Below, piece by piece: positions 1 through 15,782 of a DNA stretch of 37,397 bases. The stretch comes from Anaerocolumna sp. (GTDB lineage: Bacteria > Bacillota > Clostridia > Lachnospirales > Lachnospiraceae): NCBI GenBank assembly GCA_029239455.1, contig JAQZAX010000004.1, positions 1 to 37,397 on the forward strand. The letters run 5' to 3'. The notes under the pieces are model-generated. The model was not told where the DNA came from. It ran no database searches and was given only the letters and a program-made list of their open reading frames with translations. The position numbers and the translations under genes were made by a program. Within the stretch, counting starts at the first letter, position 1. Each line of letters opens with the position of its first letter.

Positions 1-579
1 CTTAATTCTTCCTTTGTGGATTTGAAAGTTGACAATGATGGTTTTATTTTTGGTCTTGACTTAACGAAAGGAAGAATATTTGAAAGAGATCAAGAAGGTA
101 ATTTACTGGCTGTCTTTGGCGGGCTGGGAAATCAAAAAGGTACATTTTTAACACCTGCAGCAGTTGAATATTATAACGGAAATGTGTATGTTCTGGATTC
201 TATGAAAAATAATATCACAATCTTTGAACCTACCGATTATGAAGCCATGATACGCAGCGCAACTATTCTATACAGTGAAGGAAGATATCAGGAGTCCGCC
301 ATAATTTGGGAAAAAGTTCTGCAACGAAATATTAACAGCACTTTGGCCTATGTAGGAAAAGGTAAAGCATTAACACAATCAGGTGATTACAGTGCTGCAT
401 TAGAAGCCTTTCGCTCCGGCGCCGACCGTTTTGATTATTCTCGTTCTTTTATGAAATACCGACTGGTTGTAATTAGGGAGCATGCACCGAAAGTTTTAGT
501 AGGTTTTATTCTTCTTAGTATCTTAATAAAGGGAACAAACATTTTTAGGAAATACAAAAAAAGGAGGAAAAAAGCTTGA
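1..579 (+). CDS. NHL-repeat / TPR membrane-anchored protein (3' part, cut by window edge)
   Basis: The frame is open from base 1 to the TGA at 577-579 (192 codons), so the start lies upstream of the window. The visible part has three pieces. About 75 residues of NHL/beta-propeller-like repeats come first (motifs such as DLTKGRIFERDQEGN and YNGNVYVLDSM). A TPR-like helical stretch follows (YSEGRYQESAIIWEKVLQ, then AYVGKGKALTQSGDYSAALE). The C-terminus has one transmembrane helix (VLVGFILLSILIKG) and a very basic tail. This predicts an extracytoplasmic propeller/TPR protein anchored by its C-terminus. It overlaps the next gene by 4 bp and so belongs to the same operon. Its role is unknown; context points to sugar binding or transport-complex support at the surface. 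Confidence 0.75.
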   Translation, partial: LNSSFVDLKVDNDGFIFGLDLTKGRIFERDQEGNLLAVFGGLGNQKGTFLTPAAVEYYNGNVYVLDSMKNNITIFEPTDYEAMIRSATILYSEGRYQESAIIWEKVLQRNINSTLAYVGKGKALTQSGDYSAALEAFRSGADRFDYSRSFMKYRLVVIREHAPKVLVGFILLSILIKGTNIFRKYKKRRKKA

Positions 580-1208
580 AAAAAATTAGTCTAAAGAAAA
601 CAAAAGCTAGTAATCCTTTTCATGTTATCTTTCATCCTTTTGATACCTTTTATGATGTGCGGGTTAAGAATGAAGGCGAAGTAGTATTTACAGTATTAAT
701 CCTATTGGTGTGGTTTCTGGCAGGAATATATAAACGACAAAGTACCGGTTATATCTTTAATTATAATAAATTAAGCGAACTAAATATATTTTTACAAACT
801 GCGATTGTAGTTATTCCATTTACAGTGTGGGCATGTGCCAACTGGGTAATGAGTATATTCATGAATGGAATTGGAAGATTCCGGGATATTTGGATTGTAA
901 GTGCCTACTCAGCAGTACCTTACGTTTTGGGAATATTTTTATCGGTTCTATTTAGTAATGTACTTTCTAGGACGGAGCCATTTGCAGATTATGTAATGTT
1001 TTTCGGAACTGCCTGGAGCTTGATTCTATTATTTATTGGAACAATGGTAATACATGATTATAAATTTACTCAAAATATACTCTCTACTATACTTACGGTT
1101 GGTGTAATGTTTGCCATTTTATTTTTGGCAATGCTGTTCGGAAGTTTATGGAGTGAACTGGTGTCTTTTATTAAGACGGTAACTAGGGAAATTTTATTCC
1201 GGTTATAA
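576..1208 (+). CDS. Yip1-family polytopic membrane protein
   Basis: This 210-residue protein has about five hydrophobic segments (approximately residues 37-53, 71-95, 105-130, 140-160 and 168-192), and the short basic N-terminus faces the cytoplasm. The N-terminal HPFDTFYDVR stretch and membrane layout fit the Yip1/YIP1-family proteins of Firmicutes. The start is TTG at 576, overlapping the upstream stop by 4 bp, with a strong AAGGAGG about 8 bases ahead. Yip1 proteins next to DUF5696 proteins and carbohydrate ABC transporters are a recurring arrangement in clostridia (recalled, not searched). The biochemical function is not known. The neighbours suggest it assembles or positions the flanking surface proteins with the importer. 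Confidence 0.75.
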   Translation: MKKISLKKTKASNPFHVIFHPFDTFYDVRVKNEGEVVFTVLILLVWFLAGIYKRQSTGYIFNYNKLSELNIFLQTAIVVIPFTVWACANWVMSIFMNGIGRFRDIWIVSAYSAVPYVLGIFLSVLFSNVLSRTEPFADYVMFFGTAWSLILLFIGTMVIHDYKFTQNILSTILTVGVMFAILFLAMLFGSLWSELVSFIKTVTREILFRL

Positions 1209-1228
1209 TGAGGAAAGGAGGGAACAAG

Positions 1229-3475
1229 TTGATTAAGAAAGTTATTGCTTCTATTTTACTAACGGGTGTTGTTCTGGGCGTATTTTTCGCAGCCAAAAAT
1301 ATTATGATTATGGATTCAGATAATGCAGAAGAAAAAAATATGACATGGCAGGCCGAAAAAAATGAGGCACTTGGTTCAAATAAAATAAAAGTTACGGAGA
1401 ATGACCGTTTCACCCTCTATTTCTCAGAAGATTCTGGGGAAATTTCGATTGAAGATAAGGCTACAAAATCTGTTTTATTATCTAACCCAGTAGGGATTGA
1501 CGAAGATCCTATCGCTGCTGGTATGAATAAAATGAATATGCATTCTCAACTTTTGGTAGAGTACGTAGACCCGCAAAGCAACACGTATATGGTGAATAAT
1601 TATACCGGCAGTATAAAAGAAGGTACTTATACTTATGAGCTTAAAGATAATGGCATCTATATTACTTATGCCTTTGGTAAAACTGGTTTTGAAATACCAG
1701 TTTACTATGGTCTTGGCAAAGATTACGTAAAAACTCAGATATTATGCGATAAAATTAAGCAGCACGGTACATTTAAAATATCAGCAATTACCTTCCTGCC
1801 ATATATGGGCAGCGCCACCGCAGATGAGGAAGGCTACCTGGTTATTCCTGATGGTTCAGGTACTTTAATACATTTTAACAATCAGAAACAAACTTACCTG
1901 AATTATTCTTCTGTTGTGTATGGTAGAGATAAAGCTTTAAATGCGAATTCCCAAACAGAAGTAAAAGAAGAGATTACCATGCCGGTATTCGGTATCAAAA
2001 AGCAAAGTGGTGCCATGCTTGCTGTTATTGATAAGGGTGAATATCAGGCGGAAATCAAAGCAGAGGTTGGAGGTAAAAGCAGTGTTAATAACACGGTTTA
2101 TTCCCAAGTTCGATTTATTCAAAGTGAACGAAGTACTTTATTAGAGAATAGTGCCAATGAACAGGAAGCCACTATGTTATCTGAACAGCTTATGAATTTT
2201 ACATATGAAGTTCGTTATTATTTATTGGAGGATAAATCAGCAGGTTATTCCGAAATGGCCCTACGGTATCAGAAGTACTTAATGGAAGAAAAGGGAATGA
2301 CTTCCCGTATGGAAACAAAAACCAATGAAGTTCCTATGAATATAGATTTAATTGGTTCTGTTAAAAAGCAAGCTACCTTTTTAGGAATACCATATAAAAC
2401 GGTAGAAATATTAACTACCTATCAGCAAGCTTTAGACATGACCAAAGAACTGAAAGAGAAAGGTACTAGTATTAATTTACGATATATTGGATTTATGAAC
2501 AATGGACTAAAAGATAAACTTCCGGCAGACATTACCTATGAAAGTAAGCTGGGAGGTAAGAAGGATTTTAAAGAGTTACTTACCTTTACCCAGGAGAATG
2601 GAGTTGGTTTTTATCCAAGCTTTGACTTGATTAATATGTATAAGAATGGTAATGGATTTAATTCCATCTTTGATTCTGTTAGAAATGTCAGTCGAGCTGC
2701 TTCTCTGCAATATAGTTTTTTACTTAGTTCCGGGAAAAAGGACAACAGCATATCACCCTGGTATTTACTAAAACCTGAAAAGTTGTCAGAAATTGCAGAT
2801 AAACTTGTTAAATCCCTAGAAAAAAATGGAATTAACACCATTGGCTTGGAGGGAATATCCAATGCAGTTTATTCTGATTTTAAGAAAGACAGTGTTTCAA
2901 GAAATGATGCGGGTGCTTTCTATGTAAAAGCTCTGGAGAACATTTATCAGAAAAAGGATTCGATTATGCTGGATAAGGCTTATGCCTATGCGTTCCCCTA
3001 TACGGATGTTATAGGAAATGTTCCAACAAATTCAAGTGGTTATGATATTACCGATGAAGATATTCCTTTTTACGAAATCGTAATGTCAGGTTTTGCAGCC
3101 CTATATGGGGAACCTGTTAATATGAAGAGTAATACCAGAGATTATCTTTTGAAATTAGTGGAATATGGGGCATGGCCCAGCTATTTATTCGTGAGTAATA
3201 ATCCGACCGTGCTTGTGAATACAGACTATTCCTATCTTTACGGCGTGGAATATGAAGCATGGATGGAACAATTACAGGAGACCATAGCATTTTTTAATCC
3301 TTTAAAAGAACTGTTTGGAAAATCAATTTTAAACCATGAGAAGATTCTAGACGGTGTTTATAGAATTACTTATCAGGATGAAACTAAGGTTTATGTAAAT
3401 TACAATAACTATGATGTGAATACAGATAACATACTTGTAAAAGCGTTAGATTATACAGTGACTGGAGGGGAATAA
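1229..3475 (+). CDS. DUF5696 family surface protein, possibly glycosidase-like
   Basis: From the TTG at 1229 this is 748 residues. An upstream ATG at 1208 would put the ribosome binding site (AAAGGAGGG, 1214-1222) inside the gene, so 1229 is preferred. Residues about 5-23 form one N-terminal membrane anchor or uncleaved signal. The body starts with a beta-rich region (FTLYFSEDSGEISIEDKA), continues with an alternating alpha/beta region resembling a TIM barrel (about 360-640), and ends in a short beta domain (GVYRITYQDETKVYVNYNNY). That layout recalls several glycoside hydrolase clans. Acidic residues in barrel-strand-like positions include D466 (YPSFDL) and E541 (IGLEGISN). The family is of unknown function. 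Glycosidase activity is inference from layout and context. Confidence 0.75.
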   Translation: MIKKVIASILLTGVVLGVFFAAKNIMIMDSDNAEEKNMTWQAEKNEALGSNKIKVTENDRFTLYFSEDSGEISIEDKATKSVLLSNPVGIDEDPIAAGMNKMNMHSQLLVEYVDPQSNTYMVNNYTGSIKEGTYTYELKDNGIYITYAFGKTGFEIPVYYGLGKDYVKTQILCDKIKQHGTFKISAITFLPYMGSATADEEGYLVIPDGSGTLIHFNNQKQTYLNYSSVVYGRDKALNANSQTEVKEEITMPVFGIKKQSGAMLAVIDKGEYQAEIKAEVGGKSSVNNTVYSQVRFIQSERSTLLENSANEQEATMLSEQLMNFTYEVRYYLLEDKSAGYSEMALRYQKYLMEEKGMTSRMETKTNEVPMNIDLIGSVKKQATFLGIPYKTVEILTTYQQALDMTKELKEKGTSINLRYIGFMNNGLKDKLPADITYESKLGGKKDFKELLTFTQENGVGFYPSFDLINMYKNGNGFNSIFDSVRNVSRAASLQYSFLLSSGKKDNSISPWYLLKPEKLSEIADKLVKSLEKNGINTIGLEGISNAVYSDFKKDSVSRNDAGAFYVKALENIYQKKDSIMLDKAYAYAFPYTDVIGNVPTNSSGYDITDEDIPFYEIVMSGFAALYGEPVNMKSNTRDYLLKLVEYGAWPSYLFVSNNPTVLVNTDYSYLYGVEYEAWMEQLQETIAFFNPLKELFGKSILNHEKILDGVYRITYQDETKVYVNYNNYDVNTDNILVKALDYTVTGGE

Positions 3476-3476
3476 A

Positions 3477-4379
3477 TTGAAGCAAAAAGTTAGACGTAAA
3501 ATGTCCTATCAGACGAAAAAACAAATTTATGGTTTCTTATTTATACTCCCTTGGTTTATTGGCTTTTTATTGTTTTTTGCACAACCATTTGTAGAATCAT
3601 TTAAGTATGCTTTCCAAAAGTTAGAGCCATCCTCTCAAGGATTTGTTGGAACCTATGTTGGGCTTGATAATTTTAAGTTTGCAATATTTCGAGATACGGC
3701 TTTTTTAAGAGAATGTGTTAATTCTCTCGGTAATCTAATTCAGGTTCCCCTTATTCTTATCTATAGTATAGCATTTGCACTATTAATTAAGGGTAAATAT
3801 ACAGGAAGAAGTTTTATGAGGGCAGTTGCATTTTTACCAGTTATTATTGGCTCCGGAGTTTTAATGCAGATAATCAAAGAAGATGTTTTTTCCCAAGGAA
3901 TAAAAGGAGGTAATTCCGTGTATCTTTTTGCTTCTGGAGGAGGCTTGCAAGATATCTTTGTTGCCATGGGGCTCAATCAGGGAATTATTAATTTTATTAA
4001 TCGAATCATTAGTCAGATATTTGATTTGACTTGGAGATCTGGTGTACAAATCATGTTGTTTTTAGCTGGATTACATAACATACCAGAATATGTATACGAA
4101 GCTGCTTCCTTAGAGGGAGCAAGAGAATTCGAAAAATTCTTCAAAGTAACTCTGCCGTTACTGACTCCAATGATTTTATTAAATACCATTTACAGTGTGA
4201 TAGATTCATTTTCCGATTATGGCAATCAGATTATTCAGATGATTTATTCCACTACTTTTGATCAGGTAAGACTAGGATATGCCAGCGCACTATCTATTAT
4301 ATATTTCTTTATGATTATCATGGTATTAGGACTTGTTTATTTCATCATTCGGAAATATATTGTTTCACCGGACGAATAG
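3477..4379 (+). CDS. Carbohydrate ABC transporter permease (MalF/UgpA type)
   Basis: The 300-residue protein has six hydrophobic segments and the cytoplasmic EAA loop (YEAASLEGAREFEKFFKVTLP) that docks on the ATPase. It is the first permease of a CUT1-type sugar importer. The start is TTG at 3477, one base after the previous stop, with GGAGGGG 6 bases ahead, so translation is probably coupled. It pairs with the next permease and the binding protein at 5374. No ATPase gene lies in the operon; such importers usually share an MsmX-type ATPase encoded elsewhere. The substrate is not readable from this protein. The two GH32 genes downstream suggest fructo-oligosaccharides or sucrose-like sugars. 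Confidence 0.9.
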   Translation: MKQKVRRKMSYQTKKQIYGFLFILPWFIGFLLFFAQPFVESFKYAFQKLEPSSQGFVGTYVGLDNFKFAIFRDTAFLRECVNSLGNLIQVPLILIYSIAFALLIKGKYTGRSFMRAVAFLPVIIGSGVLMQIIKEDVFSQGIKGGNSVYLFASGGGLQDIFVAMGLNQGIINFINRIISQIFDLTWRSGVQIMLFLAGLHNIPEYVYEAASLEGAREFEKFFKVTLPLLTPMILLNTIYSVIDSFSDYGNQIIQMIYSTTFDQVRLGYASALSIIYFFMIIMVLGLVYFIIRKYIVSPDE

Positions 4380-4388
4380 GAGGGCATC

Positions 4389-5327
4389 ATGAGGATACGA
4401 AAAATAAAAACTATATTATTTAAAATTGCAAAGTATATGGTCCTTGCTGCATTAGCATACCAATTGTTGTATCCGGTTCTTTATATGATTAGTATGTCTC
4501 TTCGTGCACCTGTGGATGCTTACGATCCAAGTATTATCTGGATTCCGAAGAATTTAACATTTACTAGTTTTAAGGAAGCTTTTCAAGCTATGAAATACCT
4601 GGCTGCACTAAAAACAAGTTTATTGATTGGTGTAGGATGTGCTTTATTAGATGTTGCATCCTGTGCACTTGCAGGCTATGGTTTCGCACGTTTCAATTTT
4701 AGATTTAAAAATATTTTCTTCGGAATGGTAATTTTAACCTTAATTGTACCCACACAAACAATTATTCTTCCTTTCTTTTTAAATATGAGATATTTCGATT
4801 TAAATGGATTGATAGGAGTAATTGGTAGGGCAACGGGAGGACCGGATAGTATTAATTTAATTGGCAATAAAATTAGCTTTTATCTACCTTCCTTATTAGG
4901 TGCCGGCATACGCTCTGGATTATATATATTCATATTTCGCCAGTTTTTTGCATCTATGCCGTCAGCGCTTGAGGAAGCAGCGTATGTGGATGGAAGCGGA
5001 CCATTACAAACCTTTTTAAAGATTATGTTACCTAATGCCAAGAACGGTATTGTTACTGTATTTCTGTTTTCCTTTGTTTGGCATTGGAATGATTATTATT
5101 TATCAAATCAACTTCTTGGAACGGCAGCTAGAACCATGACGGTAGCATTATCCTCTCTTCGTGTCGATTTGGCAGCTTATATCGGAGGGCAGACCATTAG
5201 TGATCCTATTGGAATTGTTACCAGAATGCAGGCAGGTGCAATTCTTACTATATTACCATTATTTATTTTATATTCATTTACACAAAGATTTTTTACAGAC
5301 AGTATTGAACACATCGGTATTAAATAG
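4389..5327 (+). CDS. Carbohydrate ABC transporter permease (MalG/UgpE type)
   Basis: This is the second inner-membrane permease of the importer, 312 residues with six predicted helices. Its EAA loop reads LEEAAYVDGSGPLQTFLKIM. It starts 9 bases after the upstream stop, with AGGAGGG directly ahead of the ATG at 4389. The protein is somewhat longer than the family's usual 275-285 residues: there is an insertion between helices (around residues 140-165, GRATGGPDSINLIGNK) in the external loop. It should form a heterodimer with the 3477 product and receive substrate from the 5374 lipoprotein. Confidence 0.9.
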   Translation: MRIRKIKTILFKIAKYMVLAALAYQLLYPVLYMISMSLRAPVDAYDPSIIWIPKNLTFTSFKEAFQAMKYLAALKTSLLIGVGCALLDVASCALAGYGFARFNFRFKNIFFGMVILTLIVPTQTIILPFFLNMRYFDLNGLIGVIGRATGGPDSINLIGNKISFYLPSLLGAGIRSGLYIFIFRQFFASMPSALEEAAYVDGSGPLQTFLKIMLPNAKNGIVTVFLFSFVWHWNDYYLSNQLLGTAARTMTVALSSLRVDLAAYIGGQTISDPIGIVTRMQAGAILTILPLFILYSFTQRFFTDSIEHIGIK

Positions 5328-5373: not shown

Positions 5374-6747
5374 ATGAGAAAACAATTTAAAAAGATGTTT
5401 GCTTTATTATTAGCAGGAACCTTGGTATTAACATCTTTTACAGGGTGTAGCAAAGGGGTAGAAAAAGACAAAGAGATGAATGCAGAAGTAACAGAAACTA
5501 CGGAAAATGGGGCAGAAGAAACGACGCAAGCTGAGACTAAGGAAGAGGTTTCTTCTCTTCCTGAAACATTGGATAATCCTAATATAACAATATTATGGCA
5601 CACTTCAGAAGAGACTTACCAAACAAATAAACAAAATGATCCCAATGCCTTTGATGCTGTATGGAGCGTATTGCCTGAGTTTGAAGCTAAATATGGTGGT
5701 AAGGTTGAAGTAAAAGCAGTAGGCTGGGGCGAGATGAAAGATACATTGATTAATATGGTGAATGCAGGTGAAGTATGTGATTTGGCACAAGCCAATGATC
5801 AAAACTTCCCGATTTATCCAGTGAAGAAATTAATTCAACCAATCTCTGGGTATATTGATGCCAATGATGATTTCTGGTATGACGGTATAACCAATGCCTT
5901 TACCTTTGGCGGTGAATCCTATGCGGTAGGTAACGATGCAACTCCAATCGTATTATATTACAATAAGAGTCTATTTGAGAGTAATGGTGTGAAAAGTCCA
6001 GGTGAGTACTATGCAGAAGGCAATTGGAATTGGGACACATTTAAAGAAGCAGCGGTTAGTATGACCGGTGATACTGATGGTGATTCTGTAAACGATCAAT
6101 TCGGATTTGGATGGTGGGATGGAGACTACGGCGTATTTATGACTACCAATGGTGTTACGAATATGGCGTATAATCAAGATGGTACCATTGGAACCAATTT
6201 TGGTACAGAAAATGCAAAGGAAGCGGTTCAGTTTATTCAGGATGCTTATGTTAAAGATAAATATATTGATGCTTCTAAATCCGGAGATTACTTTATGAAT
6301 GAATTCAAGAGTGGAAAAATGGCCATGACATTAGAATATGGTTTTAACGGATTTACTGCATATGCTAGTGATTATGAAGTTGATTTTGTTCCGCTTCCAG
6401 TAGGACCAAAAGGAGAGAAAGATAAGGCAGCCGGTGGTTTAACTGGATGGTGCGTTCCGGTTACTGCTTCTAATGGAGAAGCTGCAGCAGCATTTGTACG
6501 TATGTCCTGTGAAATGTATGGAGAACATATCAATTCAATTAATGTAGAAAAGTATGGACAGGAAAAGGTTGATTTATTTAATACTCTGGCACAAAATGTA
6601 TTATTTGCACCAATTGGTATTGAAAAATACTGGGACGCTAACTGGACAATTGTTTCAGGAATCAGAGAGGGCACACCAATCAGTACTTTCTTACAGGTAG
6701 CAGATGAACAGATTGCAGAAGGCGCAAAAATTACAATGGAACAATAG
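5374..6747 (+). CDS. Sugar ABC transporter substrate-binding lipoprotein
   Basis: The 457-residue protein has a basic N-terminus, a hydrophobic core and a lipobox ending at C25 (TSFTGC), so it should be lipid-anchored outside the membrane. An acidic, Thr/Glu-rich linker (about 30-65) precedes a family 1 extracellular solute-binding fold (NITILWHTSEE, PIVLYYNKSLFESNGV, GNWNWDTFKEAA). Many exposed Trp residues around 190-260 fit sugar stacking. A short Asp-rich stretch (GDTDGDSVNDQFG) resembles a dockerin-like calcium loop, as often seen in this family. The ATG at 5374 follows AAGGAGG. The gene lies 46 bp after the permease and 92 bp before the GH32 gene, with a stem-loop in between. Confidence 0.9.
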   Translation: MRKQFKKMFALLLAGTLVLTSFTGCSKGVEKDKEMNAEVTETTENGAEETTQAETKEEVSSLPETLDNPNITILWHTSEETYQTNKQNDPNAFDAVWSVLPEFEAKYGGKVEVKAVGWGEMKDTLINMVNAGEVCDLAQANDQNFPIYPVKKLIQPISGYIDANDDFWYDGITNAFTFGGESYAVGNDATPIVLYYNKSLFESNGVKSPGEYYAEGNWNWDTFKEAAVSMTGDTDGDSVNDQFGFGWWDGDYGVFMTTNGVTNMAYNQDGTIGTNFGTENAKEAVQFIQDAYVKDKYIDASKSGDYFMNEFKSGKMAMTLEYGFNGFTAYASDYEVDFVPLPVGPKGEKDKAAGGLTGWCVPVTASNGEAAAAFVRMSCEMYGEHINSINVEKYGQEKVDLFNTLAQNVLFAPIGIEKYWDANWTIVSGIREGTPISTFLQVADEQIAEGAKITMEQ

Positions 6748-6839: not shown

Positions 6840-8471
6840 ATGCGTATATATCAAATAGCATTTCTTTTATTGTTAACAGGCAGTTTATTGACAGGCTGTA
6901 ACAATAAAAATACAAGAGAGCAGATAAATCCAGATAATACGGATAATTTAACTGAGCATAGTACGGACTCTTTAAATAATGGGACTTCACAGGATAAAAA
7001 GGAGAATAGTATGGAGTATAACAAGGAAACGGAAGATAGTCAGAGTGAGGAGATTCCATACACCCTGTTTGCTAAGCCACCAAAAGGATGGGTAGGTGAT
7101 ATTATGCCAATGACTGATAAAGATGGTATTCAACTATATTACTTACAGGATTGGAGAGATAATGCGGAAGGTTTTCATCCGATTCATAAGTTCTCAACAA
7201 ATAATTTAGTAAATTATTCTTATGATGGTGAAATGGTACCTCTTGGCGGCTCTAGTGATCCGGATTTAGCCATCGGAACTGGAAGCATTTTGGTAGTGGA
7301 TGGTGTCTATCATTGTTTTTATACCGGACACAATTACAAGTTTCCGGAACAAGGTAAAAATAAAGAATGCGTGATGCATGCAGTTAGTACAGATAATATA
7401 AACTGGACAAAAATTCCGGAGGATACTTTCCTGGCACCAGCAGGGTATGAAATTCATGACTTTAGAGACCCTTTTGTTTTTTATAATGAAGAAGAGGGGA
7501 AGTATTGGTTACTCATCGCAGCGAGAAAGAATGATCTTGGAGGTGTAGTTGCAAAATTTACCTCTAAGGATCTAAAAACCTGGGAGGTACAAGAACCTTT
7601 ATATGCACCTGAATCTTATTTTATGCTGGAATGTCCGGATCTTTTTAAATTGGGAGATTACTGGTACCTGGTTTTTTCTGAATTCAGTCATGAAAAACGT
7701 ACCCACTATGTAATGAGCAAGTCGATAAATGGTCCCTTTATGGCACCAGTTGAGGATGCATTTGACGGAAATGCTTTCTATGCAGCCAAGACAACTGAGT
7801 ATCAGGGAAAACGTTATATTGCCGGATGGATTCCAACGAAACCGGAGGAAAAAGATAGTAATAAGTATGAATGGGCAGGTAATATGTCTGTAATGGAATT
7901 GGTGCAAAATGCAGATGGTACCTTATCTGTTAAGATGGTTGATCAGCTTAATGATTATTTTGACGCACCGGATACCCTTACAGTAAAGGAATCAATTGGA
8001 GATGCATCATTTAATGACAGTAAAGCAACACTTTCCACTGTAGAGAATGCAGAAGCTTCAGGAATTAATTTCGGAAGAATTCCACAAACCATGTTAGTAA
8101 CTGGGAAAGTAACATTCGAAGAAGATGGAAGAGGTGCAGGTTTTGCATTTGGAATAGAAGATGATTTTACAAAAGGGTTAGGTATTCATTTAGATTCTCA
8201 AAATGATTTAATTCGATACGATGCAAGTATGATACAAAGAATGCGTTATGCTAATCCAAATAGCAAGGTTAACTTTAACTTTGAGACGGGGGTAACCTAT
8301 ACTTTTAAACTTGTAGTTGAAAAAGATTTAGCTGTGGTTTATTTAAACGATGATATTGCCTTAAGTACAAGAATATACCGTATGCAGAATAATGACTGGG
8401 GCTTGTTTTGCATAGGAGGAAAAGTAGTATTTGATGACCTAAAAATTATGACTTCCAAGGAGATAAAATAA
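6840..8471 (+). CDS. Extracellular GH32-family lipoprotein (fructan-active enzyme)
   Basis: The 543-residue protein has a lipoprotein signal ending at C20 (LLTGC), followed by an Asn/Asp/Thr-rich linker to about residue 75. A five-bladed propeller of the GH32/GH43 type follows. The usual WMNDPNG block is replaced by GDIMP (D87 as candidate nucleophile). The other two active-site blocks are present: FRDP (D210, transition-state stabiliser) and LECPD (E264, acid/base). The C-terminal 150 residues form a beta-sandwich (GKVTFEEDGRGAGFAFGIE). It most likely cleaves beta-fructosyl linkages at the cell surface, feeding the importer. AAGGAG sits just ahead of the ATG at 6840. Exact specificity (levan, inulin, sucrose) cannot be read. 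Confidence 0.82.
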   Translation: MRIYQIAFLLLLTGSLLTGCNNKNTREQINPDNTDNLTEHSTDSLNNGTSQDKKENSMEYNKETEDSQSEEIPYTLFAKPPKGWVGDIMPMTDKDGIQLYYLQDWRDNAEGFHPIHKFSTNNLVNYSYDGEMVPLGGSSDPDLAIGTGSILVVDGVYHCFYTGHNYKFPEQGKNKECVMHAVSTDNINWTKIPEDTFLAPAGYEIHDFRDPFVFYNEEEGKYWLLIAARKNDLGGVVAKFTSKDLKTWEVQEPLYAPESYFMLECPDLFKLGDYWYLVFSEFSHEKRTHYVMSKSINGPFMAPVEDAFDGNAFYAAKTTEYQGKRYIAGWIPTKPEEKDSNKYEWAGNMSVMELVQNADGTLSVKMVDQLNDYFDAPDTLTVKESIGDASFNDSKATLSTVENAEASGINFGRIPQTMLVTGKVTFEEDGRGAGFAFGIEDDFTKGLGIHLDSQNDLIRYDASMIQRMRYANPNSKVNFNFETGVTYTFKLVVEKDLAVVYLNDDIALSTRIYRMQNNDWGLFCIGGKVVFDDLKIMTSKEIK

Positions 8472-8476
8472 TATAA

Positions 8477-9964
8477 ATGACAGAAAATTTAGTTAAAAGA
8501 GCCAATGAATTTATTATAGAGAATAAGCATTTAGTGAATCAGGAATTTAGACAGCATTATCATATGATGCCGCCAATCGGATGGATGAATGACCCTAATG
8601 GCTTTTCCTTATTCAAGGAAGAGTACCATTTGTTTTATCAACATTATCCATATAAAGAAAGCTGGAATGAAATATATTGGGGGCATGCAATCTCCAAGGA
8701 TTTTATCACTTGGAAAGATGTAGATGTGGCATTGGCACCAGATAAAGAATATGATAAGGCAGGTTGCTTTTCAGGTACTGCACTTGTAGAAGACGATCTG
8801 ATAAGCCTGATCTATACCTGTGTCCATGGTAAGAAAGGTGAAGAAATTCAAGAACAGGCCATGGCTTATAGCACCGATGGGATTCATTTTGAAAAATTTG
8901 AAGAAAATCCGGTGATTAAAACAGAGGACCTTCCTGATGGTATATACCCTACTGATTTCAGAGATCCTAAAATCTTTAAAGAAGGGGATCACTATTACTG
9001 TATGGTAATGGCAAAGGATAAAATAAATGGCGGCAGGATGTTGCTATATACATCAGCGAATAAAAAGAATTGGAGCTATGTAAGGGATGTCCTTCCTTTC
9101 AATCCTGAATTTGGGATTATGCTTGAATGCCCAGATTATTTTATTCTGAATGGAAAGGCTATTTTACTCATGTCGGTCATTGACTTAAAAAGACAGGGAT
9201 TTCGTTTTACGAATAAGCAATCTTCCATATATATGATTGGCAGTTATAACAATATAGATGGATTTGTGCAAGAGGTTCTTGAAGAAGCAGATATGGGTTT
9301 TGATTTTTATGCACCACAGACTGTACAAACGATGGATGGACGCGTTGTAATGGCTGCATGGATGCAGGCCTGGGAAGAAAGTCTACCGACGCAGGATCTT
9401 GGTCATGGTTGGGTTGGCTCTATGATATTGCCTAGGGAACTTGAGTTAAAAGAAGATGTTATATACCAGAAACCGGTAAGGGAAATTGAACAATACAGAG
9501 AAGACCTCATGCAATATGAAAACGTCTTAGTAACAAACCAACAGGACTGCCTAACGCTAAATGGATTAGAGGGTAACAGTATTGAACTGTATTTAGAAGC
9601 AGACTTAACAAATGCAGATGATTTTACAATTCACCTAATGAAGACAAAGGAAGAAGAATGTATCTTAACCTATAATAAGTCTTTAGGAACAATCTGCTTT
9701 GACAGGGGTAAATGCGGTTATGAAATAATTTCTAAAGGATTTGAGAAAGAGCAGTTTCGTAAGTTTGAGTTACCTCTCCTGGAGAATGTCTTAAACGTCA
9801 GAATATTTATTGATACTTGCTCTATAGAAATTTTTCTGCAAGATGGTATGCGGACCATAACTTCTTGTGTATATCCAAAAGGAAAAGACTATGGTATTGC
9901 ATTCTCAGCAGTAGGAGAAGCAGTATTAAAAACAATTAAAAAGTGGAAGATTATAAATAATTAG
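8477..9964 (+). CDS. GH32 beta-fructofuranosidase / sucrose-6-phosphate hydrolase-like
   Basis: This 495-residue protein has no signal peptide and should be cytoplasmic. It has all canonical GH32 blocks: GWMNDPNG with nucleophile D39, FSGTA, FRDP with D163, and MLECPD with acid/base E217, then the C-terminal GH32 beta-sandwich (VRIFIDTCSIEIFLQDG). It hydrolyses imported fructosides to fructose plus the rest. No phosphotransferase system is nearby, and import here is by ABC transporter, so an unphosphorylated substrate is more likely than sucrose-6-phosphate. It starts 5 bases after the previous stop. The nearest AAGGAG (about 8457-8462) lies inside the upstream gene 14 bases from the ATG, which suggests translational coupling. 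Confidence 0.9.
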   Translation: MTENLVKRANEFIIENKHLVNQEFRQHYHMMPPIGWMNDPNGFSLFKEEYHLFYQHYPYKESWNEIYWGHAISKDFITWKDVDVALAPDKEYDKAGCFSGTALVEDDLISLIYTCVHGKKGEEIQEQAMAYSTDGIHFEKFEENPVIKTEDLPDGIYPTDFRDPKIFKEGDHYYCMVMAKDKINGGRMLLYTSANKKNWSYVRDVLPFNPEFGIMLECPDYFILNGKAILLMSVIDLKRQGFRFTNKQSSIYMIGSYNNIDGFVQEVLEEADMGFDFYAPQTVQTMDGRVVMAAWMQAWEESLPTQDLGHGWVGSMILPRELELKEDVIYQKPVREIEQYREDLMQYENVLVTNQQDCLTLNGLEGNSIELYLEADLTNADDFTIHLMKTKEEECILTYNKSLGTICFDRGKCGYEIISKGFEKEQFRKFELPLLENVLNVRIFIDTCSIEIFLQDGMRTITSCVYPKGKDYGIAFSAVGEAVLKTIKKWKIINN

Positions 9965-10035: not shown

Positions 10036-10055
10036 AAATTTTGGGGGGTGATATT

Positions 10056-11096
10056 ATGCCGGAGAAAATTACGATACAAGATATGGCAGATGAACTTGGA
10101 TTATCAAGAAATACAGTTTCCAAAATATTAAATGGTAAGTATACAGGCCCTAATGAAACAAGGGAGCGTGTGATACAAAAGGCAATGGATTTACAATATA
10201 AAGGATATGGGGTCTATGATAAATCATCGGATTTTGAGTCAGATTTATCGGAAGTAAAGAACATTATGATTCTTTCAAAAGGGAATTTCCGAGATTCCAT
10301 TTTCTTTTCAAATATTATTGATGGGGTACAGAAGGTTATTAGAGAAAGCACCTGTAATATTTTGGTGTCCATTATTTTAGAAGATGATATAAAGACACTT
10401 AAGATTCCACCCAATATCAATAAAAATTTAGTTGACGGTATCATATGTATGGAAGTATTTCAAAAAGATTATATTGAGAAACTGCTTAGTCTTTCAATAC
10501 CCCTTGTATTTGTAGATTTTTATAATAACCCTAGGGAAATTACAGGTAAATACGACGTTATTATGATGGATAACGAATACAACGTATATGATTTAACAAA
10601 ACGCCTAATTGACCGAGGCCTTAAAAGAATTGGTTTTGTTGGTGATACGGAGCACTGCAGAGGTTTTTATGAACGATATAAAGCATGTAGGGACGCTCTA
10701 CGAGATCATGGTAACTACAATATAGATGAGAACAGCATTATTTATCCCAATGGACCAGATTATTTTGATGTACAATGGATGAGTAGAATGCTTTTATCTA
10801 AAAAAGAGCTACCAGAAGCCTTTGTATGTGCCAATGATGCACTTGCTGCCTGTGTTTTAAGAGGATTAGGGGCAATTGGGAAAACAGTTCCTGCCGATGT
10901 AGAATTGATATCCTTTGATAATACGGTTGAGTCAGAACTGGTCAACCCCAAACTAACTACGGTTGGGACCTTTAAATATGATATAGGGATTAGTGCTGCA
11001 GAAAATCTACTTTTGCGCATTCAGGAACCAGATAGAAAATCCCAAATTATTTATATTGAAACTGAAATTATTGAACGTTATTCAACAAAGATATAA
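10056..11096 (+). CDS. LacI-family transcriptional regulator
   Basis: The 346-residue protein has an N-terminal LacI helix-turn-helix (ITIQDMADELGLSRNTVSKI) and hinge helix, then a periplasmic-binding-protein-like sensor domain (NIMILSKGNFRDSIFFSNII, GFVGDTEH, AFVCANDALAACVLRGL). The ATG at 10056 is chosen because GGGGGGTG sits 5 bases ahead. The longer reading from TTG 10041 would place that site inside the gene. It most likely represses the fructan genes and releases on fructose or a fructose phosphate, but no operator upstream of the main operon can be inspected because that region is outside the window. It has its own promoter and is followed 27 bp later by the kinase. Confidence 0.9.
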   Translation: MPEKITIQDMADELGLSRNTVSKILNGKYTGPNETRERVIQKAMDLQYKGYGVYDKSSDFESDLSEVKNIMILSKGNFRDSIFFSNIIDGVQKVIRESTCNILVSIILEDDIKTLKIPPNINKNLVDGIICMEVFQKDYIEKLLSLSIPLVFVDFYNNPREITGKYDVIMMDNEYNVYDLTKRLIDRGLKRIGFVGDTEHCRGFYERYKACRDALRDHGNYNIDENSIIYPNGPDYFDVQWMSRMLLSKKELPEAFVCANDALAACVLRGLGAIGKTVPADVELISFDNTVESELVNPKLTTVGTFKYDIGISAAENLLLRIQEPDRKSQIIYIETEIIERYSTKI

Positions 11097-11122: not shown

Positions 11123-12034
11123 ATGGAAAAATTACTCACCATAGGAGCTGTATTATGGGATATATTCCCAGATGAAATACATATTGGAGGAGCACCGTTT
11201 AATGTGGCAGCCCATGCTGCCAGACGGGGTATGAAAGCCTATATCTTAACCAGAATAGGCAAGGATGAACTAGGAGAAAAGTCACAAACTGAGTTTCAGC
11301 AGTTAAATGTTCATAATGATTTTGTCCAACTGGATGAAGAAAAACCTACCGGAATTGCTAAGGTTACATTTTCTTCTCCAGGAATTCCTGAATATGATAT
11401 TCCAGAGGATGTTGCTTATAACAACATTCAATGCACGGAGTTATTATTATCCCAGTTGGAAGAGCACAATTTTGATTTCATATATTTTGGTTCAATGGAA
11501 CAAAAAAGCCTTATAAATCGATACACTATTTCTGAAGTTCTTAATAAAGCTAAAAAAAAGTATGTCTTTTTTGATGTTAATATCCGATTTGGATTTTATC
11601 CCCTTGAGGTTATGGAGAAATCCTTCAGAGCTGCAGATATTGTTAAAATTAACGATGAGGAGGCACTGCTTTTATCAAAATTGTTCTATGGTGAATCAAT
11701 GGATTTTGAAGCATTTGCTTTAAAAGCATCAAGTGATTTTCATATTCGTATCTTTATCATTACCTTAGGAGCCAAAGGATGTATCATATATGATCAAAAG
11801 GAAAGTCGCTTTGAAATGGTACCAGGGTTTAAAGTACAGGTAGCAGACACTGTTGGTTCTGGTGATGGTTTCTGTGCAGCATTTATGGAGACTTTTGCAA
11901 GAACAAATAATCCTTTTGAAGCTGCAAGAGAAGGGAATCGCTTAGGTGCTTATATTGCTTCGAAAAGTGGTGCAATCCCAAAGATAGAATGGGAAGAATT
12001 AGAAATGATAGGTAAAACGCAATTGAATAAATAG
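11123..12034 (+). CDS. PfkB-family carbohydrate kinase (fructokinase)
   Basis: The 303-residue ribokinase-type enzyme has the N-terminal substrate-binding block IHIGGAPFNVAAHAARRG and the C-terminal ATP/anion-hole motif DTVGSGDGF, with catalytic base D248. The close GGAPFN and the short N-terminus are typical of bacterial fructokinases rather than ribokinases. It phosphorylates fructose released by the GH32 enzymes, linking the operon to glycolysis. It is co-transcribed with the LacI gene 27 bp upstream (RBS AAAGGAAG) and followed at once by an intrinsic terminator. Confidence 0.88.
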   Translation: MEKLLTIGAVLWDIFPDEIHIGGAPFNVAAHAARRGMKAYILTRIGKDELGEKSQTEFQQLNVHNDFVQLDEEKPTGIAKVTFSSPGIPEYDIPEDVAYNNIQCTELLLSQLEEHNFDFIYFGSMEQKSLINRYTISEVLNKAKKKYVFFDVNIRFGFYPLEVMEKSFRAADIVKINDEEALLLSKLFYGESMDFEAFALKASSDFHIRIFIITLGAKGCIIYDQKESRFEMVPGFKVQVADTVGSGDGFCAAFMETFARTNNPFEAAREGNRLGAYIASKSGAIPKIEWEELEMIGKTQLNK

Positions 12035-12775: not shown

Positions 12776-13798
12776 ATGAGTTTTTATACAGCGATTCAAA
12801 GTTTAGATAAACATAAAACCAATATTGCAATTACAGTTGTGAGTGGAATTTTTGCAGGGGAGCACTTACTGCTCTCTGACGGTGTTAAGGTTTATGAATC
12901 AAAGGATAGTATTGATTGGGAACCTATCACCAGGCAAATTCCGCAACTTAAGAAGAGTCAAACCATTACAATAAATAACGAAAAGGTATTTTATGAGTTT
13001 ATACAACAAAGCTACCAGGTAGTGGTATGTGGAGCAGGGCATATTTCCATGCCAATTATAAAAATGTGCCGCATGCTTAATTTACCCGTAACCGTTATAG
13101 ATGACCGCCCATTCTTTGCAGATAATGCAAGAAGAGAAGAGGCAGATAAGGTTATCTGTGAACCGTTTTTGCAGGCACTGTCTCAAATAAATGGAGATAC
13201 AGGAACCTTTTTCGTAATCGTAACCAGGGGGCATCGATATGATCAGGTATGTCTGGAACATATTATTGATAAAGAAAATGCATATATTGGAATGATAGGC
13301 AGCAAACTTCGAGTGAAAAAAGTACTGGAATATCTGGTAGACAAGGGAATATCTAAGGAGAAACTGGATCAGGTATATACACCCATTGGATTAAAAATTG
13401 GAGCAGAAACGCCCGCTGAAATCGCTGTTGCCATAATGGCACAGATAATTGATGTAAAAAATAAGAATATCGGAAGTGACGGTTATACGGAGGAAATACT
13501 TGAGGGGATTATAAATGACAATGCGCATAATATTCCCAAAGCACTAGTCACCATTGTTTCAAGAAAAGGTTCTGCACCAAGGGAAGTAGGTACGAAGATG
13601 GTTATTTTGGCTGATGGTACTATGGTAGGAACCATTGGAGGAGGATGCGTGGAGGCAGATATTAGGCAGGTGGCACTTGACTGTATAAGAAATCAGGAAT
13701 GCAGGCTGGTTGAAAATGATATGACAGGTATCAACGCAGAAGAGGAAGGTATGGTTTGCGGTGGTATCATTGAATTGTTTGTTGAATATATTCCATAA
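12776..13798 (+). CDS. XdhC/CoxI family protein with swapped domain order
   Basis: The 340-residue protein has an N-terminal beta region (about 1-78). A Rossmann domain of the XdhC_C type (about 80-225) follows, with dinucleotide loop VVCGAGHISMP, the VTRGHRYD block and the GSKLRV / IGLKIGAETPAEIAVAI blocks. A C-terminal XdhC_CoxI domain (about 245-340; SRKGSAPREVGTKM, GTIGGGCVEADIR, GMVCGGIIELF) ends the protein. In well-studied XdhC proteins the CoxI-type domain comes first. The family inserts sulfurated molybdenum cofactor into hydroxylases such as xanthine dehydrogenase. No such enzyme or cofactor gene is visible nearby, so the partner must be encoded elsewhere. RBS TAGGAG precedes the ATG. 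Confidence 0.85.
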   Translation: MSFYTAIQSLDKHKTNIAITVVSGIFAGEHLLLSDGVKVYESKDSIDWEPITRQIPQLKKSQTITINNEKVFYEFIQQSYQVVVCGAGHISMPIIKMCRMLNLPVTVIDDRPFFADNARREEADKVICEPFLQALSQINGDTGTFFVIVTRGHRYDQVCLEHIIDKENAYIGMIGSKLRVKKVLEYLVDKGISKEKLDQVYTPIGLKIGAETPAEIAVAIMAQIIDVKNKNIGSDGYTEEILEGIINDNAHNIPKALVTIVSRKGSAPREVGTKMVILADGTMVGTIGGGCVEADIRQVALDCIRNQECRLVENDMTGINAEEEGMVCGGIIELFVEYIP

Positions 13799-13870
13799 AG
13801 GATAAGAAATAGAATGAGTAATATAAGCTTTCCTTTTTTCTAAAAAGTTGTTATGATATAAAAAATAATT

Positions 13871-13920
13871 ACAAAATACGAAATCATATCATGATTTTGT
13901 TATATAAGAACGTATTTTGA
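13871..13920 (+). promoter_or_regulatory. Leader with two alternative inverted-repeat pairings
   Basis: ACAAAATACG (13871-13880) can pair with CGTATTTTG (13911-13919). Its first seven bases, ACAAAAT, can instead pair with ATTTTGT (13894-13900), with AAATCAT/ATGATTT (13881-13887 and 13891-13897) nested nearby. The 187-base leader shows no SAM-box, T-box or cobalamin consensus that I can recognise. A switch is possible but unproven. Confidence 0.4.
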
Positions 13921-13985
13921 TGTAAAACGTTTATTAGATAAATGAAGATATGTTTAGAATCTTTTAGCCTAAGGAGACAACCAGA

Positions 13986-15770
13986 ATGAATATAAATAAA
14001 TATTTAGAGCAACATAAATTAATCATGGATGGAGCCATGGGCACCTATTTTTCCAGAATAACCAACAATGAAAATGCAATTTCTGAAAATGCGAATCTTG
14101 ATGAGCCAGAAACCATTCTTTTGATTCATAGGCAATATATTGAAGCCGGCGCCAGGCTAATTCGTACCAATACCTTTGCTGCCAACAGACAAACTCTTGG
14201 AATTAGTGAAGAAAAGCAAAGGGAGCTTATTACTGCAGCTTTTGGTTTAGCAAAAAAAGCAGCAGAAGAATCAAAAGAGAGAGTTTATATTGCTTGTGAT
14301 ATAGGACCGATTGCTGAAAATGGCTCAAGAACGGAAGAAGAAATACTTGCGGAATATAAATATATTTGCGATGTATTTTTGCAAGAAAAACCAGAAGTAA
14401 TCTTGTTTGAGACATTTTCTGATTTTCGATATATTCGAAAGCTTATCCCTTATCTTCGCGAAAAATCCCCGGATTTATTCATTATAACGAATTTTAGTTT
14501 AAATAAAAACGGATACAGTGCCAGTGGAATAAGTGCCGTTACTTTATTAGAAGAGATAGCAGCTACCGATGGAATTCAGGCAGGCGGCTTTAACTGCGGC
14601 ATTGGTTCCGGTCATATGTATCAGATGCTAAAACGAATCAGTTTCCCCGAAAATAAATATATCGTGGCCGCACCCAATGCAGGTTATCCGGAACAGCTCC
14701 AGAACCGCATGGTATTCATGGATAATGAAGGGTATTTCAGCGAAAATATGTATCGGACCTCGGGACTTGGGATTGATATTATTGGAGGCTGCTGTGGGAC
14801 AACCCCAAGCTATATAAGTAATGTGGCAGCCCGAATTAACGTTAATATAATAAACAGAGAAAACCGGATTAGTTATACCCATAAAGATAGTTCAAACAAA
14901 GAAGTTCGAAAGAATGAATTCTATGAATTGTTTCATAGTGGCAAAAAGGTAGTTGCTGTAGAATTAGATCCTCCTTTTGATGCTTTAGATGAGAAGATTT
15001 TGGATTGTGCTTATAAATTAAAATCCACTGGGACAGTTGATATTATAACCATCGCAGACTCTCCGATGGGAAGAAGCAGAGTGGATTCTATTCTTATGAG
15101 CATAAAGATTGCAAAAGAAACCGGACTCGAGGTAATGCCTCATGTAGCCTGCAGAGACAAGAATATGATAGCCATGCGTTCCGGTTTACTTGGAGCGTAC
15201 CTGAATGATATCAGAAATATTTTAATTGTAACGGGAGACCCGATTCCAGTTGAAAATCGTCAGTCTGCCACCGGTGTATTTGACTATAATTCCATACAGC
15301 TAATGCAGTTTATGCAGGAGATGAACCGAGAACATTTTAGTGAGGAACCCATATATTTTGGAGGAGCACTAAACTATGGCAGAGGCAGTATTGATAAAGT
15401 AATAGAAAGAATGGAAAAGAAAATTGCTGCCGGTGCAAAATATTTTCTAACTCAGCCAATCTTTATGGAAGAAGATATTGAACGCATTCAACTCATTAAA
15501 AGTAAAGTTGATACTAAGATATTATGCGGTATTATGCCCCTTGTAAGTTATAGAAATGCTAATTTTATCAAAAATGAAATTACAGGTATTCATGTGCCAG
15601 ATGAAGTGGTGGCACGGTATCGTCCGGATATGACAAAAGAAGAGGCAGAGTGGGTGGGTGCCCAAATTGCAAGTGAAATTATTGAGAAATTGAGTCCTTA
15701 TGCAGACGGATATTACTTTATGCTTCCATTTAACAGGGTAAGCCTTATGGAGAAGATCCGTATTGTCTAA
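13986..15770 (+). CDS. Homocysteine S-methyltransferase / methylenetetrahydrofolate reductase fusion
   Basis: The 594-residue protein has two enzymes. Residues 1-290 form a zinc-dependent homocysteine S-methyltransferase barrel (MDGAMGTYF; Zn ligands C204 in FNCG and C269/C270 in GGCCGTT). Residues about 315-590 form a MetF-type methylenetetrahydrofolate reductase (VVAVELDPPFD, VDIITIADSPMGRSR, ILIVTGDPIP, YFLTQPIF). The same fusion is known as YitJ in Bacillus. It makes 5-methyl-THF and can transfer a methyl group to homocysteine. It opens a three-gene operon with a phosphoesterase and B12-dependent methionine synthase. The ATG at 13986 follows AAGGAG. Confidence 0.92.
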   Translation: MNINKYLEQHKLIMDGAMGTYFSRITNNENAISENANLDEPETILLIHRQYIEAGARLIRTNTFAANRQTLGISEEKQRELITAAFGLAKKAAEESKERVYIACDIGPIAENGSRTEEEILAEYKYICDVFLQEKPEVILFETFSDFRYIRKLIPYLREKSPDLFIITNFSLNKNGYSASGISAVTLLEEIAATDGIQAGGFNCGIGSGHMYQMLKRISFPENKYIVAAPNAGYPEQLQNRMVFMDNEGYFSENMYRTSGLGIDIIGGCCGTTPSYISNVAARINVNIINRENRISYTHKDSSNKEVRKNEFYELFHSGKKVVAVELDPPFDALDEKILDCAYKLKSTGTVDIITIADSPMGRSRVDSILMSIKIAKETGLEVMPHVACRDKNMIAMRSGLLGAYLNDIRNILIVTGDPIPVENRQSATGVFDYNSIQLMQFMQEMNREHFSEEPIYFGGALNYGRGSIDKVIERMEKKIAAGAKYFLTQPIFMEEDIERIQLIKSKVDTKILCGIMPLVSYRNANFIKNEITGIHVPDEVVARYRPDMTKEEAEWVGAQIASEIIEKLSPYADGYYFMLPFNRVSLMEKIRIV

Positions 15771-15782
15771 CAGGAGGTAATT

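Follow-up and report, generated by a model that had tools for sequence, protein, structure and literature searches.

A putative composite CUT1-type carbohydrate importer in Anaerocolumna and its relatives, with a probably non-catalytic, glycosidase-related DUF5696 protein

The locus and its genes

The stretch of DNA analyzed here (the window) comprises the first 37,397 nucleotides of contig JAQZAX010000004.1 of Anaerocolumna sp. (GenBank assembly GCA_029239455.1). It opens with genes for an NHL beta-propeller/TPR (NHL/TPR) protein, a Yip1-family membrane protein, and a DUF5696 protein, followed by two permeases and a solute-binding protein (SBP) of the CUT1 type (Table 1). We hold with moderate confidence that the window starts with the 3' half of a composite CUT1-type importer, conserved as a set, in which DUF5696 is non-catalytic, and with less confidence each detail of that reading. 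The main evidence is a gene order conserved across the phylum, the shared divergence of the components, and the loss of catalytic residues in most members of the DUF5696 family.

Base 1 of the window is also base 1 of its contig (C3) in a 2.46-Mb draft genome of 185 contigs that is 75% complete. As a result, the window lacks the 5' portion of the NHL/TPR gene and everything upstream of it. Within the remaining fragment (1–579), Pfam gives no NHL match and only sub-threshold TPR matches; the complete homologues L036 and L034 match the NHL profile PF01436 over the cut-off. A hydropathy scan of the window proteins finds one C-terminal transmembrane (TM) segment in the NHL/TPR fragment, five in the Yip1 protein, and one N-terminal segment in DUF5696. 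The Yip1 protein scores 61.6 bits against a Pfam cut-off of 28.6. The original prediction had described three membrane-linked proteins that overlap or abut one another and run into the permease genes, and both the open reading frames (ORFs) and Pfam agree with this layout. There is a 4-base overlap between the NHL/TPR and Yip1 genes, one base is common to the Yip1 stop codon and the first ATG of DUF5696, and the permease gene follows DUF5696 after a single base. A TTG at 1229 sits 6 bases after AAAGGAGGG and is probably the start of DUF5696 in preference to the ATG at 1208. The TTG start gives the numbering of the original prediction, in which D466 and E541 correspond to D473 and E548 of the ATG ORF, whose numbering is used below.

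Of the features of a CUT1 importer, two permeases with an EAA loop and a sugar-type solute-binding lipoprotein are present at the window. The permease at 3477–4379 reaches only 20 bits with PF00528, under the cut-off of 26.4, yet it falls in permease clade A2 described below. Three PF17912 matches in the genome, all of them on other contigs, are candidate MalK-type ATPases that may serve the importer. Downstream, the second GH32 protein exceeds the cut-off of the sucrose-6-phosphate hydrolase subfamily, and the two GH32 genes suggest that this is a fructan locus.

Table 1. Genes and DUF5696 residues of the window considered in this work
Feature	Position	Strand	Basis
NHL beta-propeller/TPR protein, 3' end, C-terminal TM segment	1..579	+	ORF open at contig start; TPR sub-threshold
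Yip1-family membrane protein, about 5 TM segments, TTG start after GGAGGA	576..1208	+	PF04893 E 1.2e-16
DUF5696 protein, N-terminal TM anchor, GH129-like fold by homology	1208..3475	+	PF18952 E 2.1e-179
D473 of DUF5696, non-catalytic column	2624..2626	+	Asp in 21/42; one residue past the HDQY Asp column
E548 of DUF5696, GH129 nucleophile column	2849..2851	+	Aligned with Asp 426 of L028 (AYLDVF); acidic in 14/82
D589 of DUF5696, GH129 acid/base Glu column (first Glu of SSEEV)	2972..2974	+	Acidic in 30/82
CUT1 permease A2 (pair 2)	3477..4379	+	Weak PF00528, 5.9e-4; clade A2; EAA loop EAASLEGA
CUT1 permease B2 (pair 2)	4389..5327	+	PF00528 3.3e-14; clade B2; EAA loop EAAYVDGS
Small solute-binding lipoprotein	5374..6747	+	PF13416 3.4e-22; lipobox read from sequence
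GH32 lipoprotein, BT1760-like C-terminal domain, candidate surface fructanase	6840..8471	+	PF00251 2.1e-32; PF16346 4.3e-8; lipobox LTGC
GH32 protein without signal peptide, candidate cytoplasmic beta-fructosidase	8477..9964	+	PF00251 9.7e-92; TIGR01322 over cut-off
LacI-family regulator	10041..11096	+	PF13377, PF00356
PfkB-family sugar kinase, candidate fructokinase	11123..12034	+	PF00294 2.1e-38

Distribution and cohesion of the set

The set has been surveyed with profiles seeded from the window proteins in the phylum of the window and in 14 control genomes. Matches above the cut-off of PF18952, the DUF5696 profile, occur in 31 of the 146 order genomes and 35 of the 348 phylum genomes sampled; the two samples share at least genomes G000 and G005. 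Only weak cross-matches to GH129-like or other proteins are found in 7 and 2 of these genomes, respectively, and strong DUF5696 matches (>370 bits) occur in 24 and 33. Two control genomes give a PF18952 signal, none of it over the cut-off, and a scan of viral contigs gave no relative. In total, 82 loci were compared: the window, one further locus (L003) from a scan of genome contigs, 40 from the order, and 40 from the phylum. These represent 40 of 46 further order places above 370 bits and 40 of 49 new strong phylum places, leaving 6 of the 47 such order places, three order fragments of 90–268 bits, and 9 phylum places outside the comparison. In five of the 6 order places Yip1 lies beside DUF5696, and the sixth begins at a contig end.

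Upstream of DUF5696, NHL/TPR is found in 80 of the 82 loci and so is Yip1, the two being fused in 31; because they precede DUF5696 this consistently, the arrangement is not due to chance. The two loci lacking both are L121, whose contig starts inside DUF5696, and L047. By script, 78 loci have a permease pair in the 2.5 kb downstream of DUF5696; downstream permeases are present in L113, L118, and L127 too, where the overlap is longer, and the contig end truncates L119. DUF5696 and Yip1 therefore mostly occur with transporters rather than without them, which supports the tie to a sugar importer claimed in the original prediction. A second permease pair is located upstream of the core in 59 loci, and in 64 the permeases on one strand number four or more. 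A large SBP (>850 residues, median 983) is encoded in 62 loci and a small SBP in 66. The usual order is large SBP, permease pair 1 (A1/B1), NHL/TPR, Yip1, DUF5696, permease pair 2 (A2/B2), and small SBP.

The association has also been followed from Yip1, using a profile built from 37 of 49 sequences. Among the 146 order genomes, 47 of the 48 strong matches (at least 118 bits) adjoin DUF5696 by coordinates. The exception is G040:C8. In this genome the set breaks between Yip1 and DUF5696, and each half is retained on a contig of its own: L152 (G040:C8) carries the large SBP, A1, B1, NHL/TPR, and Yip1 without DUF5696, and L047 (G040:C16) carries DUF5696, A2, B2, and an SBP. Five weak matches, four in G076 and one in G050, are fragments or marginal. 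On one 10.7-kb contig of G076 (L153, G076:C95), four separate fragments match the C-terminal part of the Yip1 subfamily, and the profiles detect neither DUF5696 nor a permease there. In L130 (2862–5721), permease B1 is in two pieces of 189 and 215 residues with a 442-residue ORF on the opposite strand between them, which looks like an insertion.

When permeases of 240–420 residues are placed in a tree, the four classes, labelled by position only, each form a pure clade: 58 A1, 58 B1, 77 A2, and 75 B2 sequences. The clade support is 1.0 for A1, 0.99 for B1, 0.65 for A2, and 0.99 for B2. All four classes keep an EAA-type coupling loop, which reads EAG in 40 of the 58 A1 sequences. The pairwise distance matrices of seven components, compared over 57 loci, correlate with r between 0.79 and 0.94, and the highest value in 999 shuffles per pair is 0.27. 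Median divergence is lowest in A1 and B1 (0.49 and 0.51) and highest in DUF5696 (0.75), as expected if the ligands of DUF5696 vary or if it is less constrained.

A locus of the same appearance is already in print. The excerpt of PMC8579813 used here lists the xylan degradation locus (XDL) of Caldicellulosiruptor (Anaerocellum) bescii as xloEFG-X-GH129-axoFGE together with xylanase genes in the same operon, and reports that growth on xylan raises the proximal genes in the 10- to 100-fold class and the distal genes 4- to 9-fold. According to an excerpt of PMC12285236, the regulator XynR binds the XDL operator with a Kd of 161 nM and the XDL is present in 11 Caldicellulosiruptorales genomes. The order SBP, two permeases, X, GH129, two permeases, SBP is that of the surveyed loci, with X standing where they have NHL/TPR-Yip1 and GH129 where they have DUF5696. 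For example, L129 has the large SBP, A1, B1, a fused NHL/TPR-Yip1, DUF5696, A2, B2, and an SBP. The likeness to the window extends to its 3' half only, and the comparison is one of gene order, not of sequence. The published description differs in that X is unnamed, the next gene is called GH129, and the whole is treated as two xylan transporters. Based on gene order, the XDL is probably the same system; if it is, the set is a xylan-induced uptake locus in C. bescii, which supports its reading as an importer. The names Yip1, NHL, and DUF are absent from the excerpts of PMC8579813, PMC12285236, and PMC12838199, the last of which is also without Xlo, Axo, and GH129.

The published view corresponds to the strongest alternative, which we consider unlikely: two ordinary CUT1 importers would lie side by side, co-inherited for regulation, and NHL/TPR, Yip1, and DUF5696 would be loose accessories such as assembly factors or stress proteins. 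This explanation draws on the binding protein and EAA loops that each permease pair has, on the division of the set in G040, on the absence of the large SBP from 20 of the 82 loci, and on the count of two transporters, XloEFG and AxoFGE, in the excerpt of PMC8579813. On the other hand, pair 1 stands upstream in 59 loci, each permease class is a pure clade, NHL/TPR and Yip1 sit between the two pairs, and the correlation holds across all components. Ordinary CUT1 importers that use a shared MsmK/MsmX ATPase, such as Athe_0595-0598, resemble the set in having two permeases and binding proteins in a locus without an ATPase (PMC12838199 and PMC8579813, in excerpt), and C. bescii uses a shared MsmK (PMC8579813, in excerpt). 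The DUF5696 sets differ from them in two permease pairs forming four clades, an SBP of ~980 residues, and the NHL/TPR-Yip1-DUF5696 core.

The genes around the sets point to varied substrates. From 68 loci, 225 flanking ORFs on the same strand and of at least 200 residues were collected, and 125 were scanned with Pfam. The flanking families listed include GH10, GH3, GH66, GH67, GH13, GH127, GH43, GH31, GH4, GH16, GH26, GH30, GH42, GH35, GH5, and GH106, as well as apiosidase, fucosidase, and pectate lyase families. Uronate enzymes and LacI-type regulators also occur, mixed with unrelated genes. A second set in the genome of the window (L043) is accompanied by GH66, GH13, and LacI genes, which points to an alpha-glucan substrate. 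Another contig, L151 (G000:C171, 1–8768), carries GH125, GH65, a small SBP, a large SBP of 1009 residues, and the start of an A1 gene that runs off the contig. Further along the window, ORFs at 12776–16865 resemble by eye XdhC-type, methionine-cycle (homocysteine methyltransferase/MTHFR-like), and phosphoesterase proteins and are unrelated to the importer set.

Glycosidase ancestry and catalytic columns of DUF5696

A profile of 38 of 42 DUF5696 sequences (profile A1) was compared with solved structures. It matches the GH129 enzyme NagBb (5wzq) with an E-value of 3.5e-10, DagB (5opq) with 4.4e-12, and 8rzk and 8rzg with 3.2e-12; the NagBb match rests on a single barrel-spanning stretch (i-Evalue 5e-9). 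Aligned by hhalign with a profile of six GH129-like proteins (A3), it gives a probability of 98.7 and an E-value of 3e-16 over 495 columns. These six (L028-L033) are weak PF18952 matches; the five that were scanned are GH101/GH129-like and match the DUF5696, GH101, GH129, and DUF6259 profiles at once, linking those Pfam families. The six proteins are about 620–660 residues long, belong to the same order, and have intact catalytic-type motifs. The window DUF5696 itself matches only PF18952 in Pfam, with no PF11308 or PF12905 match up to an E-value of 0.01. In a joint alignment, DUF5696 and the GH129-like proteins have conserved G, Y, T, R, and P positions in common.

Judged by these profile comparisons, DUF5696 is homologous to the GH129/GH101 glycosidases over the barrel and the flanking beta regions. 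This agrees with the beta/barrel/beta, glycosidase-like layout that had been proposed from the window alone. The characterized members are alpha-N-acetylgalactosaminidases (NagBb, PDB 5wzn; EngBF), which share the barrel and flanking beta regions with DUF5696. DUF5696 differs in its N-terminal membrane anchor, in being encoded between permeases, and in the loss of the AYLDVF Asp and the SSEEV Glu from most of its members. DagB (ZGAL_3152, PDB 5opq), a GH129-like 3,6-anhydro-D-galactosidase, is among the best solved relatives by profile and consists of an N-terminal beta-sandwich, a TIM barrel, and an Ig-like C-terminal domain (PMC5698469, in excerpt). Unlike the sets described here, it works as an active enzyme within a marine polysaccharide locus, and the excerpt of PMC5698469 gives no link to an ATP-binding cassette (ABC) importer.

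The joint alignment, of 82 DUF5696 and the six GH129-like proteins, has been used to locate the catalytic columns. We take Glu478 to be the acid/base residue of NagBb. Counting along L028 from NagBb His395 and Trp398 would place Asp435 at the Asp of AYLDVF and residue 478 at the first Glu of SSEEV. Asp435 is one of the two catalytic residues of NagBb (PMC5698469, in excerpt), and Trp398 is a stacking residue (PMC8106489, in excerpt). The Asp of HLDGW had been considered as the nucleophile and was rejected after the statement on Asp435 in PMC5698469. At the nucleophile column, the 82 DUF5696 proteins have Arg in 22, Ser in 12, Thr in 10, Asp in 7, and Glu in 7, as against Asp in all six GH129-like proteins. 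At the acid/base column, 30 of the 82 are acidic, as against Glu in all six. Both columns are acidic in all six GH129-like proteins and in only four DUF5696 proteins, namely the window (Glu/Asp), L048 (Asp/Glu), L137 (Asp/Asp), and L131 (Glu/Asp); the canonical Asp and Glu pair is therefore found once. No acidic residue is invariant among the 82, and the positions kept in at least 93% of them are G, P, A, Y, L, T, R, F, and N.

Based on these columns, the DUF5696 family is best seen as a group of pseudo-glycosidases in which the catalytic residues have mostly been lost, and DUF5696 is probably a non-catalytic sugar-binding subunit. Trimming is unlikely as the function of the family because of this loss, which does not support DUF5696 as the agent of the oligosaccharide trimming that the original prediction offered as one role of the surface complex. 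The two acidic residues named there have fared differently. E541 (E548) lies on the GH129 nucleophile column, and D466 (D473) lies on no catalytic column, so the two have been rejected as a catalytic pair.

A role for DUF5696 as an active surface glycosidase, trimming oligosaccharides before import and perhaps doing so only in some members such as that of the window, is improbable. The homology of DUF5696 to GH129/GH101 fits such an activity, and so do the acidic E548 and D589 of the window protein, though in the order Glu/Asp instead of Asp/Glu. DagB is an active enzyme that keeps only one member of the NagBb catalytic pair, which means that the machinery is able to move (PMC5698469, in excerpt), and the C. 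bescii gene at the DUF5696 position is labelled GH129 (PMC8579813, in excerpt). These points are set against the rarity of an acidic pair, the prevalence of Arg, Ser, and Thr at the nucleophile column, and the lack of any invariant acid. In addition, the window already has two GH32 proteins for fructan, a chemistry unlike that of GH129.

A candidate surface complex for glycan import

The topology of the components was predicted by hydropathy. Where NHL/TPR is not fused to Yip1, the hydropathy scan finds a C-terminal segment in all 49 proteins and an N-terminal hydrophobic segment in 44. DUF5696 homologues have an N-terminal hydrophobic segment in 77 of 82 cases and a lipobox-like motif in 21. 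The large SBP has an N-terminal segment in 52 of 62 cases and a lipobox-like motif in 2, and is therefore probably tethered by an uncleaved helix; the small SBP has a lipobox-like motif in 29 of 66. Ahead of the SBP domain, the large SBP of L036 matches the carbohydrate-binding module (CBM) family CBM35 just over the cut-off and CBM6 below it.

In the organism of the window, the surface GH32 would cut fructan and the membrane-tethered large SBP would hold the glycan chain. DUF5696, tethered beside pair 2, may offer its old active-site cleft as a non-catalytic groove that binds or guides the sugar. The NHL propeller and TPR outside, together with Yip1 in the membrane, would join both pairs of permeases into a single complex. 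Uptake would be powered by shared MalK/MsmK-type ATPases, and the cytoplasmic GH32 and the kinase would complete the breakdown. Capture of oligosaccharides and their hand-over to the importer, as had been suggested for the window, is plausible.

The Sus systems of Bacteroidota combine a surface enzyme, a surface glycan binder, and a dedicated importer, with a separate set for each glycan. The suggestion of a Gram-positive counterpart holds only as a resemblance of role in outline; neither a SusC-type TonB-dependent barrel nor SusD is found among the genes scanned with Pfam, and the DUF5696 sets use ABC import. A bolder version, which we offer only as a tentative and rather doubtful extension, is a Sus-like single-membrane complex in which the two permease pairs, the tethered large SBP, and the dead glycosidase all hold on to one long glycan chain. 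Import of long oligosaccharides, or even of complete polysaccharide chains, would then need little outside cutting. The DUF5696 cleft would be a variable specificity groove on a common framework that serves in turn for fructan, alpha-glucan, xylan, mannan, and pectin.

Several observations weigh against a composite importer with a non-catalytic DUF5696. The catalytic columns were placed by alignments in which identity is about 15%, and the six GH129-like controls are mutually 52–66% identical, which makes them a narrow control. The DagB E-value sums individually weak stretches, the best at 0.003. The AlphaFold model of DUF5696, from a two-sequence alignment of the window and L003, is poor (pLDDT 37, pTM 0.36), and because it is too poor for a fold search the homology rests on profiles. 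The A2 split has a support of 0.65, and linkage alone could yield part of the co-variation of the components. Among the loci without a large SBP, the window, L105, L107, L121, and L130 are cut at or before its position, and others, L109 and L113 among them, are not. CBM matches are clear in the L036 protein alone of the three large SBPs scanned; L003 has a weak CBM35 match and L043 has none. The upstream half of the window set, comprising the large SBP and permease pair 1, lies outside its own contig, and contig C171 (L151) may be that half or part of a third set. The excerpt of PMC8579813 treats the C. bescii set as two CUT1 transporters and names the gene at the DUF5696 position GH129.

It is very doubtful that NHL/TPR, Yip1, and DUF5696 act together as a sensor or gate, signalling glycan outside the cell and controlling the importer or its genes, since no kinase, anti-sigma, or other output domain was found among the core proteins scanned and the regulators beside both sets of the window genome are LacI-type, even if the NHL propeller and TPR suggest protein-protein contacts and a GH129-like fold could bind a ligand without cutting it.

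The gene order of the set is already in print for C. bescii. This work adds that the set recurs as a unit across the phylum, that its middle gene is NHL/TPR-Yip1, and that most members of the family have lost the catalytic residues; in the open-licence literature, supplements excluded, no description of the composite unit across the phylum, of the nature of X, or of the catalytic loss was found. A composite importer would bring together as a single unit what has so far counted as two transporters, a gene without a name, and a GH129, and would give an evolutionary origin and a likely role to DUF5696, a Pfam family of unknown function. It also carries the caution that the fold alone is insufficient to call DUF5696 a glycosidase. 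Glycan capture by single-membrane bacteria is less understood than Sus, and the set offers a concrete candidate complex for it.

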